From contig NZ_MEHJ01000001.1 in the NCBI RefSeq assembly GCF_001746415.1, positions 2,563,001 to 2,627,000 of the forward strand: a DNA stretch of 64,000 nucleotides, given 5' to 3'. The notes beneath the pieces are model-generated. The model searched no databases. It was given only the letters and a program-made list of their open reading frames with translations, and was not told the DNA's origin. This stretch comes from Streptomyces agglomeratus (GTDB lineage Bacteria; Actinomycetota; Actinomycetes; Streptomycetales; Streptomycetaceae). The position numbers and the translations under genes are program-made. Of the stretch, positions 1,615 to 64,000 are shown in pieces (within the stretch, counting starts at the first letter, position 1; each line of letters starts with the position of its first letter).

Positions 1615-2607
1615 TTGGAGCGCAGGACAATCGGTGCGGCAGCGCTCGAAGTGGGCGCGATCGGACTCGGATGCATGCCGATGAGCTGGGCGTACACCGG
1701 CTCGCAGCAGCGGGGGGACCGGTCGGTGCGTACCGTTCACGCGGCGCTCGACGCGGGATCCAGCCTGCTCGACACCGCCGACATGTACGGGCCCTTCACC
1801 AACGAGCTGCTGCTGGGGCGGGTGCTCAAGGAGCGGCGCGCCGACGCGTTCGTCTCGACCAAGTGCGGGCTGCTGGTCGGTGATCAGCACATCGTCGCCA
1901 ATGGGCGTCCGGGGTACGTACGGCGGGCGTGTGACGCTTCGCTGCGGCGGCTCCAGACCGATGTGATCGACCTCTACCAGCTGCACCGGCCCGATCCGGA
2001 GGTGCCGGTCGAGGAGACCTGGGGCGCGATGGCGGACCTGGTGCGGGCGGGGAAGGTGCGGGCACTCGGGATGTGCGCGGTGGGGGCGCGTGCGGCGCGG
2101 CGGCCCGGGGCACGGATGCATGACGGAACGATTCGCCAGCTGGAGCGGGTGCAGCAGGTCTTCCCGGTGAGCGCGGTGCAGGCCGAGCTCTCGGTGTGGT
2201 CTCCGGAGGCGCTGACGGCGCTGCTGCCGTGGTGCGAGGCGCGGGGGGTCGGATTTCTGGCCGCCATGCCGCTGGGGAACGGCTTCCTGACGGGCACGCT
2301 CAAGCCGGGTCAGGGTTTCGAGCCGGACGACGTACGGGCCCGGCATCCGCGGTTCACGGCGGAGATGATGGCGGCGAACCAGCCGGTGGTGGCGGGGCTG
2401 CGCCGGGTCGCCGGGCGCCACGGTGCGACGCCGGCGCAGGTGGCGCTGGCGTGGGTGCTGGGGCGCGGTCCCCAGGTGGTGCCGGTGCCGGGTGCCAAGC
2501 GCGAGCGGTGGGCGGTGGAGAACGCGGGAGCGGCCGGGCTGCGGCTGACGGCCCGGGACCTGGCGGAGATCGCGGGGCTTCCGCCGGCCCGGGGCTCGTG
2601 GGACTGA
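1615..2607 (+). CDS. Aldo/keto reductase
   Basis: A 330-residue TIM-barrel NADPH-dependent reductase of the AKR superfamily. The start is TTG, with a purine-rich GAGGGAGGGG stretch about 10 bases upstream. Visible family features are GLGCMPMSW, LLDTADMYG (catalytic Asp and Tyr), VSTKCG (catalytic Lys), IDLYQLHRPD and the C-terminal nucleotide-binding stretch VVPVPGAKR. The physiological substrate is unknown. It stands alone between a divergent dehydrogenase and a lipoprotein gene, and a strong hairpin follows its stop codon. Confidence 0.9.
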   Translation: MERRTIGAAALEVGAIGLGCMPMSWAYTGSQQRGDRSVRTVHAALDAGSSLLDTADMYGPFTNELLLGRVLKERRADAFVSTKCGLLVGDQHIVANGRPGYVRRACDASLRRLQTDVIDLYQLHRPDPEVPVEETWGAMADLVRAGKVRALGMCAVGARAARRPGARMHDGTIRQLERVQQVFPVSAVQAELSVWSPEALTALLPWCEARGVGFLAAMPLGNGFLTGTLKPGQGFEPDDVRARHPRFTAEMMAANQPVVAGLRRVAGRHGATPAQVALAWVLGRGPQVVPVPGAKRERWAVENAGAAGLRLTARDLAEIAGLPPARGSWD

Positions 2608-2608
2608 C

Positions 2609-2657
2609 GCGGGGACCGGCGACCGGCCCCGCGGGCGGCTCCCGCGCCGGTCCCCGC
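2609..2657 (+). terminator. Rho-independent-like hairpin after the aldo/keto reductase
   Basis: Perfect 13-bp arms (GCGGGGACCGGCG and its complement) enclose a 23-base G/C-rich loop. It starts two bases after the TGA stop. There is no T-run, as is common in Streptomyces terminators. Confidence 0.6.
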
Positions 2658-2756
2658 CCGCCGGGCTGATCCGGAGCGGAACCCCGGAGGCGCGAGCGGT
2701 GTATGAAGAGTGAGTGCCGCCGGCGACGACCGCCGGCCGTCGAAGGGATGCCCACC

Positions 2757-3926
2757 GTGCAACGTCCTGCTGTGACAGCTGTGTTGGCTGCCGCCGTTCT
2801 CCTGCTCACCGCGGGGTGTTCCGGCGCGGACGGGAACGCGCCGGCCCCGACGGCCACGGGCAGCCCGAGTGCGTCGCCGTCGGGCGACGCGTCCGGGCCC
2901 GGCTCGGGGGCGCGTGCGGAGCCGCCGCCCGCCAAGGGGTCGGTCGAGGTGGCGGGCACGCTCACCGAGGGCCTCAAGTCGCCCTGGGGCCTCGCCGCCC
3001 TGCCCGACGGCGATCTGCTGGTGTCCTCGCGCGACGAGGGGACGATCACCCGTGTCGACGGTGAGACCGGCAAGAAGACGGAGGTCGGCACCGTCGCGGG
3101 GGTCGCGCCGGCCGGCGAGGGCGGCCTCATGGGGCTGGCGGTCCCAGCCTCCTTCGCCTCGGACCACATGGTCTACGCGTACTTCACCACGGAGTCCGAC
3201 AACCGCATCGCCCGCATGCTGTACGACGAGAAGAAGCCGGCCGGGCAGCAACTCGGCGCACCCGACACCATCTTGCGGGGCATTCCCAAGGGCACGGTCC
3301 ACAACGGCGGCCGGATCGCCTTCGGCCCGGACAGGATGCTCTACGCCGGTACGGGCGAGACGGGCGACACCGGGCTGGCGCAGGACAAGAAGTCGCTGGG
3401 CGGCAAGATCCTCCGGATGACGCCGGACGGCGAGCCGGTGCACGGCAATCCGGAGGCGGACTCGGTCGTCTACTCGTACGGGCACCGCAATGTGCAGGGT
3501 CTGGCCTGGGACAGCGAGAAGCGGCTGTGGGCGGCCGAGTTCGGCCAGAACACCTGGGACGAGCTCAACCTGATCCGTCCCGGCCAGAACTACGGCTGGC
3601 CCGACGTCGAGGGCAAGGGCGGCGAGGAGGGCTTCACCGACCCGGTCGCGCAGTGGAAGACGTCCGAGGCATCGCCGAGCGGCATCGCGTACGCCTCGGG
3701 CTCCATCTGGATGGCGGGGCTGCGCGGCGAGCGGCTGTGGCGCATCCCGCTGGACGGCACGAAGCCGGTGGCGGACCCCGAGTCGTTCCTGGTGGAGGAG
3801 CACGGCCGGCTGCGCACGGTGGTGGCGGCCGGCGGCGACAAGCTCTGGCTGGTCACCAGCGAGACGGACACCCGGGGCACCCCGCAGGCGGGCGACGACC
3901 GGATCCTGAACCTGGAGGTGAAGTAG
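2757..3926 (+). CDS. Lipoprotein PQQ-dependent sugar dehydrogenase family beta-propeller
   Basis: A secreted lipid-anchored protein of 389 residues. The signal peptide ends in the lipobox LLTAGC, followed by a Ser/Pro/Ala-rich spacer and then a glucose/sorbosone dehydrogenase (GSDH) propeller. Diagnostic stretches are LKSPWGLAALPDGDLLVS, EGGLMGLAVP, NGGRIAFGPDRMLYAGTGE, YSYGHRNVQGLAWD and WAAEFGQNTWDELN. Known relatives oxidise sugars with PQQ, but substrate and cofactor use are not proven here. I chose GTG at 2757 because GAAGGG lies 9 bases ahead; an ATG at 2748 directly abuts that site. It is probably monocistronic. Confidence 0.88.
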   Translation: MQRPAVTAVLAAAVLLLTAGCSGADGNAPAPTATGSPSASPSGDASGPGSGARAEPPPAKGSVEVAGTLTEGLKSPWGLAALPDGDLLVSSRDEGTITRVDGETGKKTEVGTVAGVAPAGEGGLMGLAVPASFASDHMVYAYFTTESDNRIARMLYDEKKPAGQQLGAPDTILRGIPKGTVHNGGRIAFGPDRMLYAGTGETGDTGLAQDKKSLGGKILRMTPDGEPVHGNPEADSVVYSYGHRNVQGLAWDSEKRLWAAEFGQNTWDELNLIRPGQNYGWPDVEGKGGEEGFTDPVAQWKTSEASPSGIAYASGSIWMAGLRGERLWRIPLDGTKPVADPESFLVEEHGRLRTVVAAGGDKLWLVTSETDTRGTPQAGDDRILNLEVK

Positions 3927-59201: not shown

Positions 59202-59417
59202 TCAGCCCTTGTTCTGGGAGGCCCAGAACTCGTCGAAGGTGAGCTTGCCGTCACCGTTGCCGTCGTGGGCGTTGATCACGGCCTGGGCCACCGTCTCGGT
59301 GACATAGGGGTCACCGAGCTGCGCCATGACGCTCTTGTACTCGGCCGCCGAGATCGTCCCGTCCCCGTTGAGGTCGTACCGCTCGAAAGCCTTGCGCGCC
59401 GACTCGATGTCCGCCAT
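59202..59417 (-). CDS. Small EF-hand calcium-binding protein
   Basis: A 71-residue protein with two EF-hand loops, DLNGDGTISAAE and DGNGDGKLTFDE, each with the full set of acidic and polar ligands. This is the calerythrin/calcium-sensor type seen in actinomycetes, with no signal peptide. ATG at 59417 has AAGGGGTGGG ahead; the longer frame has none. It lies alone and converges on the PadR gene. Its partner is unknown. Confidence 0.92.
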   Translation of the reverse strand: MADIESARKAFERYDLNGDGTISAAEYKSVMAQLGDPYVTETVAQAVINAHDGNGDGKLTFDEFWASQNKG

Positions 59418-59523
59418 GGACCCACCCCTTCTGGTGCTGATCAGAACCCGCACAGATTATCGGTCCGGCCGGTTGCCGGTCCCCCCTGCCTTCGGCGCCC
59501 CCGGGCGGTGCTTGGATCTCCGT

Positions 59524-60240
59524 ATGACCGACTCGGCCGGCTCCACCGAATTCACCGCCACCACTGGCACCACCAGCACCGCCGACAGCGCCGACAGCGC
59601 CGACAGCGCACTGGCGCGGATCCTCGCCGCCGTGGCGCGCGGCGACTTCCCCGCGGCCGACGGCTCCACGACCGTGGTGCCGCAGCCGAACGCGCGGGAC
59701 GCGGGGGTCCTGGCCTTCACCGCGCACTCGGTGATCTTCACGGACGAGGACCCGGACTGGGTCCGGTCCGCCCTGGCCGCGACCCGCTGCGACCCGCTGG
59801 CCGCTTCGATGAATCCCGCCTTCCTCATGACCCTGATGGCGCGCACGGGCCGCAGGATGAACGACACCATCGACCTGCTGACGTACGCACCCGCCCTGCC
59901 CGGCGCCCCGGAGGTGGAGCTGCGCGAACTCGACGACCCGGAGCACCCGCGGGTCGTGCGGGCCAGGAAGTTCCGGCACGACGTACGGGTCTGGTCGGCC
60001 GACGGCGGCGTACTGATACTCGGCCGGGGCGTCGCCGGACGCCGGGAGGCCGCGATCGAGGTCGAGGAGAAGGCCCGCGGCCGGGGTCTGGGGCGGCAAC
60101 TCGCGCTGGCCGCGCGCCATCTGACGCCGGACCCGGTGGTCTGGGCCCAGCAGCCGCCGGGCAACGCCCGCAGCGTACGCACCTTCCAGCAGGCGGGATA
60201 CCGGCCCGTGGGATCGGAGGCCCTGATGGTCGCGCACTGA
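59524..60240 (+). CDS. GNAT-family N-acetyltransferase
   Basis: A 238-residue protein. The N-terminal part is Thr/Ser/Ala-rich with three direct ADS repeats (about residues 20-28), probably flexible. The GNAT core is in the last 110 residues: AAIEVEEKARGRGLGRQLALA is the acetyl-CoA loop and VWAQQPPGNARSVRTFQQAG the conserved end. Substrate unknown. ATG at 59524 has only a weak GGAT ahead, and longer frames are antisense to the EF-hand gene. Confidence 0.82.
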   Translation: MTDSAGSTEFTATTGTTSTADSADSADSALARILAAVARGDFPAADGSTTVVPQPNARDAGVLAFTAHSVIFTDEDPDWVRSALAATRCDPLAASMNPAFLMTLMARTGRRMNDTIDLLTYAPALPGAPEVELRELDDPEHPRVVRARKFRHDVRVWSADGGVLILGRGVAGRREAAIEVEEKARGRGLGRQLALAARHLTPDPVVWAQQPPGNARSVRTFQQAGYRPVGSEALMVAH

Positions 60241-60423
60241 AGTATTTCTCGACAAAGCATCAGCCCGCCGGGACAGCGCGTTTTTCGCCCTGGAGTGCTG
60301 AGTTCCGGCCAATACCAGGGCCCACTTCGTCACTCTCCGCCGCCGGGCGATAACTTCATGACGTCGCCGCCACACCAGGAGCACAGGGCTCCTCGGGACT
60401 AGCGGCGCAAGGGCGTTCTCTCA

Positions 60424-60666
60424 GTGGACCTCACGACTGACGCATTCACGAGCGATTCCCGCACCTGGCGCATCCGCCGAACTCCGCAGCATTCCGCCCG
60501 CCTCGCCGCCAGGCAATTCGAAGCGGTCCGCCGGCGAAATCCGGCCGGGGTCGAGACGGCAGGGCCACCCGGTGTTCCGGCCCGGGCGGCGGACCCCTTC
60601 GCATTCTCCGGCCGACGCCGCGTACGAGTTGCCGCACGACGCCTACGGAAGGACCGCGGACGATGA
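60424..60666 (+). CDS. Possible 80-residue protein overlapping the P450 start
   Basis: GTG at 60424 opens an 80-codon frame that ends in TGA overlapping the P450 ATG (ATGA), the usual sign of coupling. The product is basic (about 20 Arg) with no recognisable motif. Third-position G+C is about 70%, below typical Streptomyces genes, and AAGGGCG lies 10 bases upstream. A second frame from GTG at 60572 (36 codons, MFRPGRRTPSHSP then AAYELPHDAYGRT) has AGGG ahead and a higher third-position G+C, near 88% in its first part; it runs 20 bases into the P450 gene. At most one is likely real. Confidence 0.3.
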   Translation: MDLTTDAFTSDSRTWRIRRTPQHSARLAARQFEAVRRRNPAGVETAGPPGVPARAADPFAFSGRRRVRVAARRLRKDRGR

Positions 60667-61853
60667 GCGACAGGCTGCTTGATTTCCCGCTTTCGCGGCG
60701 GGGCGACGTACTCCCCGAAGAGTGCTCCTGGCTGCGCGAGCAGCAGCCGGTGGCCCGGGTGCGCACACTCACCGGTGACAGTGCCTGGCTGGTGAGCAGC
60801 TACGCGCTGGCCAAACAGGTGCTGGAGGACGACAGGTTCAGTCTCAAGGACACGACCGCTCCGGGGGTGCCGCGCCAGTACGCGCCGACCGTCCCGCCCG
60901 AGGTCGTGAACAACATGGGGAACATCGACAGCGCCGCTCTGCGCGGGGCCGTGATGAAGGCGCTCAACCCGCGAACGGGCGAGGGTCTGAACGGCTGGCT
61001 GCGCATCACGGCGGACCGGCTCATCGACGACCTGATGGCCTGGGGACCTCCGGTGGACCTCCGGGCGGGGTTCGCCGACCCCTTCTCGGCGGCGCTGCAC
61101 TGCAAGGTTCTCGGAGTGCCGTTCGAGGACTGGCCGCGGCTCATGTCGAGTCTGGACATCGCGTTCATGACCAGCGCGCACCCCTTCGAGGGCGCACAGC
61201 TCAACTGGTACAAGGACGTCGGCTACATGGTGGAGCGGCTCAACGCTCCCGCGTCCGAACGGGCGGGGCTCCTGGGTGAGCTGGCCGCGCTGCGTGAGGA
61301 CGCGGAGTCCTCACACCTGACGGACGAGATGCTCGCCACCGTCGCCGCCTCACTGTTCGGCGCGGGCGCGGTCTCCACGTCCGCGTTCCTGGTGCTCGCG
61401 GTGCTCGCGCTGCTCCAGCGGCCGGAACTGATCGGCTATCTGCGCGACCACCCCGACCGGATGGGCCGCGCCGTCGACGAGCTGCTGCGCTGGAACCTGT
61501 CGGTCGGCGACGGCCTGCCGCGCCTCGCTCTCGCCGACGTACGGCTCGGTGACGTGCTCGTGCGCAAGGGCGAGCTGGTCCTGGTCCTCGTCGAGGGGGC
61601 CAACTTCGACCCGGAGGTCTTCGAGGACCCGCGGACCCTGAACCTGAACCGCGAGCACAACCCGCATCTGGCCTTCGGTGCCGGCCGGCACTTCTGCCCG
61701 GCGTCCGCGCTCGGGCGCGCGCACGCCCGTGCGGCGCTCTCGGTGCTGGTGGAGCGGATGCCGCGGCTGGGGCTCGCGGTTCCGGCGGAGCAACTGGTGT
61801 GGCGTACGGGCTTCATCAAGCGGCTGCCGGAGCGGCTTCCGGTGCTCTGGTAG
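60663..61853 (+). CDS. Cytochrome P450, CYP121-like
   Basis: A 396-residue P450 with GAGRHFCPASALGRAHA around the heme cysteine at residue 345. This matches, as I recall it, Cys345 of the 396-residue CYP121 of Mycobacterium tuberculosis, which couples the rings of cyclo(Tyr-Tyr). Further shared runs are PPEVVNNMGNI, ALHCKVLG, GDGLPRLALADV-like blocks, KGELVLVLVEGANFDPE and PERLPVLW. The I-helix is LFGAGAVSTSAF, lacking the usual acid-alcohol pair. At the positions of CYP121 Gln385 and Arg386 it has Ile and Lys. GGAAGG lies upstream of the ATG. The natural substrate is unknown. Confidence 0.92.
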   Translation: MSDRLLDFPLSRRGDVLPEECSWLREQQPVARVRTLTGDSAWLVSSYALAKQVLEDDRFSLKDTTAPGVPRQYAPTVPPEVVNNMGNIDSAALRGAVMKALNPRTGEGLNGWLRITADRLIDDLMAWGPPVDLRAGFADPFSAALHCKVLGVPFEDWPRLMSSLDIAFMTSAHPFEGAQLNWYKDVGYMVERLNAPASERAGLLGELAALREDAESSHLTDEMLATVAASLFGAGAVSTSAFLVLAVLALLQRPELIGYLRDHPDRMGRAVDELLRWNLSVGDGLPRLALADVRLGDVLVRKGELVLVLVEGANFDPEVFEDPRTLNLNREHNPHLAFGAGRHFCPASALGRAHARAALSVLVERMPRLGLAVPAEQLVWRTGFIKRLPERLPVLW

Positions 61854-61874
61854 GGAATCCGGCGGCGGCCCGTG

Positions 61875-63059
61875 TCAGCGGAAGACGCCCGTGTGGCCGA
61901 GCGAGTAGCGGCCCGGCTGCGGGTAGACCGCCAGGCCGTGCGGGCCGCCGCCGACCGGGATGCGGGCGAGCTGGTCACCGGTGGTGGTGTCGATCGCGTA
62001 CACCTCGGAGTCGTAACGCCCGGACAGCCACAGCACCTTGCCGTCGGCCGAGACGCCGCCCATGTCCGGGCTGCCGCCGTCCGGCAGGTGCCACTTCTTC
62101 GTCAGCTTCTTCTTGGTGAAGTCGAACACGGAGACGGACCCCTCGCCGCGGTTGGAGACGTACATCTCCCGGGAGTCGCGCGAGACGTAGAGGCCGTGGC
62201 AGCCCTTGCCCGTCGGCAGCAGCTCGGGGGTGGTGAACTTCTCGCCGTCCAGGACCCACATGCCGTGCGCCATCATGTCCGCGATGTAGATCGTCTTCCC
62301 GTCGGGCGAGATCTTCACGTCCTGCGGCATCGCGCCCTCGAACGGAAGCTTCTGCTGGCCGACCACCTTCATCTTCTCGGTGTCGACCTTGAGCAGCTCC
62401 CCGGAGAACTCGCAGGAGACGACGAAGTACCGGCCGTCGGCGGAGAAGTCGGCGTGGTTGACGCCGTAACAGGAGACCGGAACGGTCTTCCTGCGCTCCA
62501 TGGTGTGCGGGTCGCGGAAGACCAGTTCGCGGTCCATCGACGCCATGACGACGGCGTACTTCCCGTTGGGCGTGAAGTAGAGGTTGTACGGGTCGTGCAC
62601 CTCCACCGGCTTGCCCACCTCGCCCGTCGCCGGGTCGATCGGGGTGAGCGTGTGGCCCCGGTTGTTGTTGACCCACAGGGTCTTCATGTCCCAGGACGGG
62701 ACGACGTGCTGCGGCTGGACGCCGACCGGGATGGTCTTGACGACCTTGTACGTCTTCGGGTCGATCACCGACACCGTGTTGGAGTTGGTGTTGGGGACGT
62801 AGACGCGGGACGGGAAGTTCTTGACGGCCGGTGACAGCTGGTTCGGCCGGTCGGCGGCGTAGACGTCCTTCGGGTCGAGCACCGGCGGCATCCCGGGCAG
62901 CCCGGCGGGCACGGTCTTCTCCACTTTGCCGGGCGGCGCGGCGCCCTCGGTGCCGCGCGCCTCGGCCGGGCCCTTGTCGTGGGGGCCGGCGCAGCCCGCG
63001 AGGGTGGCCAGGAGGGCGCCGGCGAGCAGTGCGGCCGTACGTCGGGTGATCGTCGTCAT
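61875..63059 (-). CDS. Lipoprotein YVTN-type beta-propeller
   Basis: A 394-residue secreted lipoprotein with lipobox LATLAGC. At least six propeller repeats are visible, e.g. YVPNTNSNTVSVIDPKTYKV, VNNNRGHTLTPIDPATG, VSNRGEGSVSVFDF and LSGRYDSEVYAIDTTTGD. These are YVTN-like surface or electron-transfer-type repeats; enzymatic activity is unknown. It overlaps the stop of the deacetylase-like gene by four bases (ATGA), so the two are translated together. It converges on the P450 gene with a 21-base gap. Confidence 0.9.
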   Translation of the reverse strand: MTTITRRTAALLAGALLATLAGCAGPHDKGPAEARGTEGAAPPGKVEKTVPAGLPGMPPVLDPKDVYAADRPNQLSPAVKNFPSRVYVPNTNSNTVSVIDPKTYKVVKTIPVGVQPQHVVPSWDMKTLWVNNNRGHTLTPIDPATGEVGKPVEVHDPYNLYFTPNGKYAVVMASMDRELVFRDPHTMERRKTVPVSCYGVNHADFSADGRYFVVSCEFSGELLKVDTEKMKVVGQQKLPFEGAMPQDVKISPDGKTIYIADMMAHGMWVLDGEKFTTPELLPTGKGCHGLYVSRDSREMYVSNRGEGSVSVFDFTKKKLTKKWHLPDGGSPDMGGVSADGKVLWLSGRYDSEVYAIDTTTGDQLARIPVGGGPHGLAVYPQPGRYSLGHTGVFR

Positions 63060-63871
63060 CGGGTCAGCAGCTCCGTGGTCGTCACCGCGCGCAGGCCACG
63101 GCGGTCGAGTTCGTCGAGGAGGGCGGGCAGGGCGGCGACCGTGTCCGCGTAGCCGAAGTGCAGGCTCACCACGGATCCGTTGCGGACCTCCCCGGCGATC
63201 CTGCGGGTGACGGCCGGGGCGCCGGGTGAGGTGAAGTCCAGCGGGTCGACGTCGTACGAGAGGACGTGCGGGTAGCCGGCCCGGCGCGCCAGCCGCTGCA
63301 CGAGCGGCGTGGCGTACTGGGCGCGCGACGGCCGGAACCAGGTGCCGATAGAGCCGGTGAGCCGGCGCAGCCGGTCGGCGCAGCCGCTGATCTCGGCGTA
63401 CGCCTCCCGCTCGCCCATGGCCGAGATGGCGAGGTGGCGCTGGGTGTGGTTGCCGAGGTCGTGGCCGCCGTCGAGGATGCGGCGGGCAAGCCGGGGGTGG
63501 GCGTCCAGCCAGCTGCCGACCGCGAGGACGGTGAGGCGGGCGCCGCGCCGCTCGGCCTCGGCGAGCACGGCCCGCGCGGTGGCCGGGTCGCCCTGGCCGT
63601 GGAAGGTGAGGGCGACGCGGGGCCGGTCGCGCGGGCCGTGGGTGATCTGGACGGGCAGGCCCGCGAAGCGGTGGGGCCCGGGGGCGGGGCGGGGGGCCGC
63701 GGGCCGGGCCGTGGCGGCAGGACCGGAGGGCGCGCCGGCGGACGGTGCGGGGGCGGGTGACCCGGGGCCCGCCTCGCAGCCGGTGGCGAGTGTTCCCGCG
63801 GCGGCCGCCCCGGCCGCTCCGGCTCCGGCGCGCAGCACGCTACGGCGGCATGTCAGTGTCACGCGCCCCAT
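63056..63871 (-). CDS. Secreted polysaccharide-deacetylase-family protein
   Basis: A 271-residue NodB-fold protein. The N-terminus has twin arginines (CRRSVLRAGAGAAGAAAAGT) and a lipobox-like LATGC, so it is exported. Metal histidines are in GNHTQRHLAIS, and SRAQYATPLVQRLAR and SLHFGYADT fit later motifs. The first motif reads TFHGQGD instead of TFDDG, so the catalytic base or metal site differs from the classic form. ATG at 63871 has no clear ribosome site; a GTG three codons later is possible. It is the first gene of a coupled pair with the propeller. Confidence 0.87.
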   Translation of the reverse strand: MGRVTLTCRRSVLRAGAGAAGAAAAGTLATGCEAGPGSPAPAPSAGAPSGPAATARPAAPRPAPGPHRFAGLPVQITHGPRDRPRVALTFHGQGDPATARAVLAEAERRGARLTVLAVGSWLDAHPRLARRILDGGHDLGNHTQRHLAISAMGEREAYAEISGCADRLRRLTGSIGTWFRPSRAQYATPLVQRLARRAGYPHVLSYDVDPLDFTSPGAPAVTRRIAGEVRNGSVVSLHFGYADTVAALPALLDELDRRGLRAVTTTELLTR

Positions 63872-64000
63872 TTAAGGGGTAATGCGAGCAAAAGATAACG
63901 ATTGAGCCAATTCGCGGCACAGCGGGTCGCCCGACACCGTGACCGCACCCAGGGGCGCTGGCTAATGATTCACCCGTCACGACCCATATTTATGCACGCA

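Follow-up and report, generated by a model that had tools for sequence, protein, structure and literature searches.

What does a diketopiperazine-type cytochrome P450 work on when the gene for the substrate-making enzyme is not beside it? The window analysed here, a stretch of 64,000 nucleotides of the Streptomyces agglomeratus genome (contig NZ_MEHJ01000001.1), raises this question, as it contains a CYP121-like P450 gene that is preceded by small open frames and has, as a first-pass annotation had said, no cyclodipeptide synthase (CDPS) gene beside it. The annotation had offered two readings, a peptide-crosslinking pair and an orphan diketopiperazine enzyme. We found the following features at this locus; interest centres on the retained P450 and the folded leader.

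60327..60356 (+), promoter-like pair TCGTCA - 18 nt - TAACTT, placed by eye and by position relative to TTGACA..TAACTT of tyrosine-type relatives
60350..60415 (+), two-stem RNA leader, from alignment A1 and pair counts (cmsearch 85.7 bits)
60365-60370 with 60402-60407 (+), leader stem P1, 6 bp
60378-60382 with 60388-60392 (+), leader stem P2, 5 bp
60424..60682 (+), relic of a CDPS gene; GTG 60424 is the old start, and the old stop at 60682 overlaps the P450 start
60424..60451 (+), CDPS 5' piece, matching L003 7295-7322 (blastn 59607-60451 / L003 6471-7322, 83%)
60490..60637 (+), CDPS middle piece, matching L003 7529-7675 (blastn 69.8%, E 1.6e-7)
60634..60682 (+), CDPS 3' piece, matching L003 7972-8020 (blastn 60634-63996 / L003 7972-11364, 86%)
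60424..60666 (+), 80-codon frame, no codon-position bias
60572..60682 (+), 36-codon frame, its end being the old CDPS C-terminus in the old frame
60663..61853 (+), CYP121-like P450 of the tryptophan (GutD/PtmB) type, 396 aa, heme Cys345, open frame, purifying selection

The sequence of 60663-61853 bears out the annotated length of 396 aa, the heme Cys345 and Ile385-Lys386, and the only Pfam match in the product is to P450. Among solved structures, the best match was 9o4d, named 'Cytochrome P450 121' (681 bits), followed by PtmB (586 bits), GymB1 (533 bits) and M. tuberculosis CYP121 (478 bits). By sequence, the nearest characterised kin of the window P450 are tryptophan-diketopiperazine, nucleobase-coupling P450s associated with CDPSs (PtmB; GutD of S. 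purpureus), rather than the tyrosine-type CYP121. Against NCBIfam TIGR04538 (CDPS-associated P450) the product scored 87.3 bits, below the curated cut-off of 500 bits. PtmB is reported to couple cWW with guanine and hypoxanthine (PMC13122648) and the S. purpureus P450 to couple guanine to cWW (PMC7954767; PMC10092475), one CDPS of the latter species being reported to make cWW only (PMC5816076). A YncE-like beta-propeller gene (window 61875-63059, -) adjoins the locus in 17 of the 18 loci L001-L018, and an EF-hand gene (59202-59453, -) in 16 of the 18, indicating that the operon occupies a stable chromosomal place.

The overlap described by the annotation is present: the 80-codon GTG frame (60424-60666) closes with an ATGA that overlaps the P450 start, and the 36-codon GTG frame (60572-60682), containing AYELPHDAYGR as annotated, overlaps that start by 20 nt. 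Both frames lie in a stretch that is collinear with the L003 CDPS (start 7295, ORF end 8020), and equally with the L004 and L015 relics. L003, Streptomyces ISL-98, has a P450 88% identical to that of the window and an intact CDPS that ends within the beginning of the P450 gene; the distance from CDPS start to P450 start is 706 nt in L003 versus 239 in the window, indicating a loss of about 470 nt. In the translations, MDLTTDAFT represents the CDPS N-terminus and HSARLAARQFEAVRRR..AGPPG an internal CDPS piece, and AYELPH and DAYGRTADDERQAA correspond to CDPS VYELLH and DSFGRTADDLRRAA, in another frame. The annotation had looked to amino acid conservation in an upstream frame as a sign of a peptide substrate. 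Instead, the window and L004 relics differ at 20/14/18 sites at codon positions 1/2/3 (of 80/80/79), the P450 genes of the same two loci differ at 42/37/93 (of 392 each), and the relic pairs among window, L004 and L015 gave 20/14/18, 17/15/16 and 5/7/5, an evenness that argues for an absence of coding constraint. The conserved upstream peptide frame expected beside a RiPP P450 was not found at the window locus, and the peptide-crosslinking pair is not supported, the small frames being collinear CDPS gene pieces without such constraint. All seven orphan relics are open up to the P450 start, and selection for translational coupling was considered as the cause; it was rejected because random deletions inside the CDPS kept the frame readable up to the P450 start in 44-53% of draws for L003 and L014 and in 79-99% for L006, L007, L008, L012 and L017, so that the openness is no more than chance expectation. 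On their sequence, the small frames are explained, and ordinary, as relics of a substrate-making enzyme gene.

Among the 80 best-matching of 175 relatives of the window P450, 74 have a CDPS immediately upstream, the exceptions being L001, L002, L004, L010, L015 and L018. In alignments read by eye, both deletion junctions of the window are common to L004 and L015, suggesting that this CDPS loss is older than the window branch; L001 and L002 have one common junction, other than the window's, and those of L018 and L010 are different once more. At least two origins of the orphan state are required on the P450 tree, and a gutted CDPS lies beside an open P450 in seven genomes. A survey of the genus (392 sampled genomes, P450 cut-off E<=1e-120) gave 107 P450 matches in 96 genomes, with CDPS present in at least 142 of the 392 (at least 150 CDPSs). 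Among the CDPS matches listed, one lies just upstream of 102 of the 107 P450s, and one further (G332, L191) was found singly; the five P450s without a listed CDPS are those of the window, G085 (the L002 place), G114 (the L004 place), G119 and G332, leaving 4 of 107 without an adjacent CDPS. At other loci the P450 had itself degenerated: it is frameshifted in G119 (L192) and cut to 194 aa in G381 (L180), both having no full CDPS; it is in fragments, with a weak CDPS match, in G781 (L201), which came from the class search; and in G199 (L179) both genes are gone with the leader kept, indicating that decay does happen. The G199 and G381 loci came to light through the search with the leader. Of the 11 loci lacking a full CDPS, a set gathered by different routes and not a sample, 7 have an open P450. 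Elsewhere, the P450 of L193 (G285, 2280-3442) was matched in two frames beside a one-frame CDPS, which may be real or a sequencing error, and a tyrosine-type CDPS in two pieces with a full P450 adjoining was seen in L190 (G163, 2024-2753, the pieces lying in two frames) and also in L024, L040 and L067.

The type of the lost CDPS can be approached through its partner. P450s with Ser230/Ile385 pair with a CDPS pocket of Leu..Ser/Ala at 37 of 37 loci, and those with Thr230/Met385 pair with a pocket having Asn at the key site at 61 of 61; two pocket positions were read by pattern, 4 of the 102 loci having no readable motif. The Leu..Ser/Ala motif is reported to occur in tryptophan-using CDPSs and the pocket Asn to be essential for tyrosine (PMC5816076). 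The window P450 carries Ser230/Ile385, the tryptophan-type signature, and this pairing, together with the reported cWW chemistry of relatives, makes it most likely that the lost CDPS was of the tryptophan type. The annotation had taken Ile385 and Lys386 to point to a different substrate; the residues are there but by themselves do not prove a new substrate, since all 95 distinct intact relatives have Lys386, and Ile385 accompanies tryptophan-type pockets. The genome-wide CDPS search that the annotation proposed did detect one elsewhere (the only one at E <= 0.001), at C1:786929-787588, 1.84 Mb from the window P450 (C1:2623663), but this CDPS has a tyrosine-type pocket and its own P450. In that second operon (C1:786929-788798), the CDPS is followed by a CYP121-like P450 that is 65% identical to the window P450 and of the Thr230/Met385 type, whereas the window P450 is of the Ser230/Ile385 type.

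Selection was estimated with a codon model (own script) on 27 P450s, taking residues 62-97 as the loop, a choice made after viewing the alignment and controlled by a sliding scan. Outside 62-97, omega was 0.059 for the background, 0.057 for the window, 0.068 for L018, 0.054 for L001/L002, 0.107 for L010 (mildly relaxed, 2dlnL 7.0) and 0.154 for L004/L015 (relaxed). For the window P450, omega = 1 was rejected there (2dlnL 371) along a branch with roughly 0.95 neutral changes per codon; the codon model thus indicates strong purifying selection on this P450 outside the loop since the CDPS was lost. Within 62-97, with branch lengths fixed from the rest of the P450, omega was 0.031 for the background, 0.133 for the window, 0.44 for L018, 0.13 for L001/L002, 0.35 for L010 and 0.60 for L004/L015. 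The 24-codon sliding scan peaked at residues 73-96 (2dlnL 37.5), and segments starting before 43 or after 97 reached at most 8.8, that one with less orphan change. Loop changes are few in the window P450, and the excess on its branch alone is weak (2dlnL 3.8), the strongest cases being the sister orphans. Residue 75 (CYP121 Leu76), Leu in 95 of 95 distinct intact relatives, is altered in 6 of the 7 orphans (P, M, L, P, H, H and P in window, L001, L002, L018, L004, L015 and L010), and residue 229 (CYP121 Val228, reported as a ligand contact in a table of PMC11084333) is Ala in the six window-clade orphans and Val or Leu in all 95 intact rows. In L004/L015, the loop is largely replaced at residues 62-94, with 4 or 7 residues missing, and the heme cysteine and most other contact residues are kept. 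At the 16 CYP121 ligand-contact positions, the window had 2 of its 5 changed conserved sites (Fisher 0.05, borderline); an enrichment over the window, L001, L002 and L018 together was not significant (2 of 11, p 0.21), and adding L010 gave 5 of 17 (p 0.005).

Upstream of the relic, a 22-nt leader pattern was found with at most 4 mismatches in 108 of 109 loci, and with none in 7 of 7 orphans, versus 5-9 mismatches in downstream controls. The S. agglomeratus genome has 8 sites with at most 3 mismatches, compared with 13 for the reversed pattern; the only two with fewer than 3 head the two CDPS-P450 loci. The 86 distinct leaders align into two stems with 98.2% of 944 cells paired, around an internal loop with conserved CACACC and GGGAC, and compensatory changes occur at 5 pairs, 69 cells having changed on both sides. 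Not one of 500 shuffles reached the cells paired or the covariation score, and slid controls were 30-53% paired; the count of further pair types is not exceptional, being reached by 44 of 500 shuffles. RNAalifold is in agreement and adds 2 pairs. Folded alone, the window leader gave a z of -2.35, and the second-operon leader (G000:C1:786790-786856; cmsearch 85.7 bits, equal to the window leader), folded in a longer stretch, gave -0.84. A short conserved leader peptide (M.S.PH.EHRAPRD) was considered and dropped, since the tyrosine-type leaders looked at have no ATG at that point and the changes fit RNA stems. Rfam gave no match at E<=1 in window 60200-60700 and none at the gathering score in L014, L028, L055 and L078, and among the open-access papers listed for CDPS or cyclodipeptide loci no title or abstract opening described such an element; the leader may be undescribed.

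Searching 384 Streptomyces genomes with leader model R1 yielded 126 matches in 105 genomes. At 45 bits or more there were 105 matches, 98 of which precede a CDPS among the CDPS matches listed, the other seven being those of the window, G085, G114, G119, G199, G381 and G332. Among the CDPS matches listed in the sampled Streptomyces, the leader precedes 96 of 102 CDPSs beside a CYP121-like P450, the exceptions being G036, G048, G081, G367, G385 and G388 (the last two may lie outside the 384 genomes searched), and 3 of 48 other CDPSs (G004, G227:C4 and G310), two of them beside P450-matching DNA. Nine weaker matches stand 8-10 nt before a 115-aa LuxR-type (GerE) gene, two of them in the S. agglomeratus genome (40.5 and 34.2 bits); the remaining weak matches, for which no common neighbour was seen, may be due to chance. 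These two diverged leaders lie on contig C2 (L178 2582-2648, +, and 8723-8788, -), 8-9 nt before LuxR-type genes that are paralogous, about 6 kb apart and facing each other. A class-wide search of 384 genomes gave 14 with a match: 12 Streptomyces, one from another family with CDPS and P450, and one weak. At L179 (G199), the leader (2921-2986) is kept at 76 bits though CDPS and P450 are gone, reflecting either a recent loss or another use of the leader, so that a conserved leader is by itself no proof that the P450 is used. The leader probably lies at the 5' end of the message, immediately ahead of the ribosome site. On balance we favour the reading that an undescribed structured RNA leader stands at the head of CDPS-P450 operons in Streptomyces and some relatives, with a diverged form ahead of a small LuxR-type regulator gene, and that it is a candidate switch or protein-binding site tying diketopiperazine production to a shared signal. 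In the orphans, where it is nearly unchanged while the relic has drifted, it would govern the P450 alone.

Taken together, it is very probable that the window P450 is the orphan of a former two-gene guanitrypmycin-type CDPS-P450 operon, in which the CDPS decayed to a relic and the P450 was kept; of the two initial readings, the orphan diketopiperazine enzyme was right. The sequence shows that the CDPS gene, presumably of the tryptophan type, shrank to a relic of about 260 nt through internal deletions and a frame change, which yielded the small open frames; the P450 remains open with its heme cysteine, and the folded leader has been retained. The P450 would still be made and active, and by analogy with GutD and PtmB would carry out the oxidation of an indole diketopiperazine and its coupling to a nucleobase, with substrate coming from outside this locus. 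The enzyme is most likely still functional, acting on a substrate that the locus does not make. An altered ligand is the likeliest option, with about an even chance, since constraint falls mainly in the substrate (B-C) loop; a tryptophan diketopiperazine from elsewhere (NRPS, surroundings or other strains) comes next and is possible but doubtful, and slow decay that is yet invisible in the window copy is rather unlikely. The relaxed L004/L015 P450s, with their loop largely lost, and the mildly relaxed L010 P450 speak against an orphan that was kept.

Supply in trans, in which the window P450 would use the tyrosine diketopiperazine of the second operon, has one association in its favour: all 7 orphan genomes whose P450 is open have a tyrosine-type CDPS-P450 pair elsewhere, and among 30 relatives whose tryptophan-type locus is intact, 6 have a second pair (Fisher 1.7e-4; the second pair was typed in the 7 orphans and in L003, whose pair, not being tyrosine-type, was scored as absent, and G119, G199, G381 and G781 were left out). 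L010, for example, has a second pair, and its sister L017 and near relatives L006, L007, L008 and L012 do not. However, the comparison contains only 2 independent tree contrasts (sign test p 0.5), so we rest no explanation on it; G199 lost its P450 despite having a second pair, and G119, with its frameshifted P450, has no second match at E <= 1e-120. A shift of orphan P450s toward the tyrosine type was also not seen: of 20 sites that distinguish the P450 types, orphans retain the tryptophan-type state at 14-18, and their sole tyrosine-type states, at 158 and 163, are common to the six window-clade orphans and the intact L003 and hence are older. Supply in trans is therefore improbable.

That the P450 modifies a small ribosomal peptide from the 80- or 36-codon frame is suggested by the open frames, the ATGA overlap and the Tyr and His in the tail, but is extremely unlikely, as these frames are pieces of the CDPS that occupies their place in most relatives, the relics of window, L004 and L015 differ about equally at all three codon positions, and the frame end differs between L004 and L015; a conserved peptide precursor is thus already refuted. 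Plain decay, with the P450 a functionless survivor that is not yet broken, would agree with the broken or lost P450s at L192, L179, L180 and L201, with relaxed selection in L004/L015 and with the leader persisting alone at L179. The low omega of the window P450 over so long a branch, the open P450s at most of the CDPS-less loci and the near-constancy of the leader beside a drifting relic argue against it, and we think it has little chance of being correct.

The kept orphan would thus come from a biosynthetic operon that lost its substrate-making gene at least two times, the tailoring P450 being kept and its substrate loop freed, and CDPS-less loci with intact sisters may serve as a natural experiment on P450 substrate change. 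The folded leader, found at CDPSs and at a LuxR-type regulator gene, would give a first handle on the control of such clusters, one of which is reported to be silent in standard culture (PMC13122648).

In biarylitide/cittilin-type systems, the P450 gene is preceded by a tiny precursor gene; a short frame precedes the P450 here as well, but that of the window is a CDPS gene relic. CYP121 (Rv2276, mycocyclosin synthase) resembles the window P450 in its 396 aa, Cys345 and most ligand-contact residues, but has Gln385-Arg386 in place of Ile-Lys; its partner CDPS is reported to make cYY (PMC7954767), and no tyrosine-type CDPS is paired with the window P450. GymB1 belongs to the same P450 group. Closest are GutD and PtmB: the window P450 is 79% identical to the P450 of L014 (S. 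purpureus JCM 3172) and 67% identical to that of L020 (Kitasatospora mediocidica KCTC 9733), the presumed counterparts of GutD and PtmB, and agrees with them in its Ser230/Ile385 type, heme Cys, operon position and leader. Both have an intact CDPS next door, whereas the operon of the window has the relic alone, and the window P450 differs from them in the substrate loop by Ala65Thr, Leu75Pro, Ile77Val, Asn89Asp and Gly92Ala.
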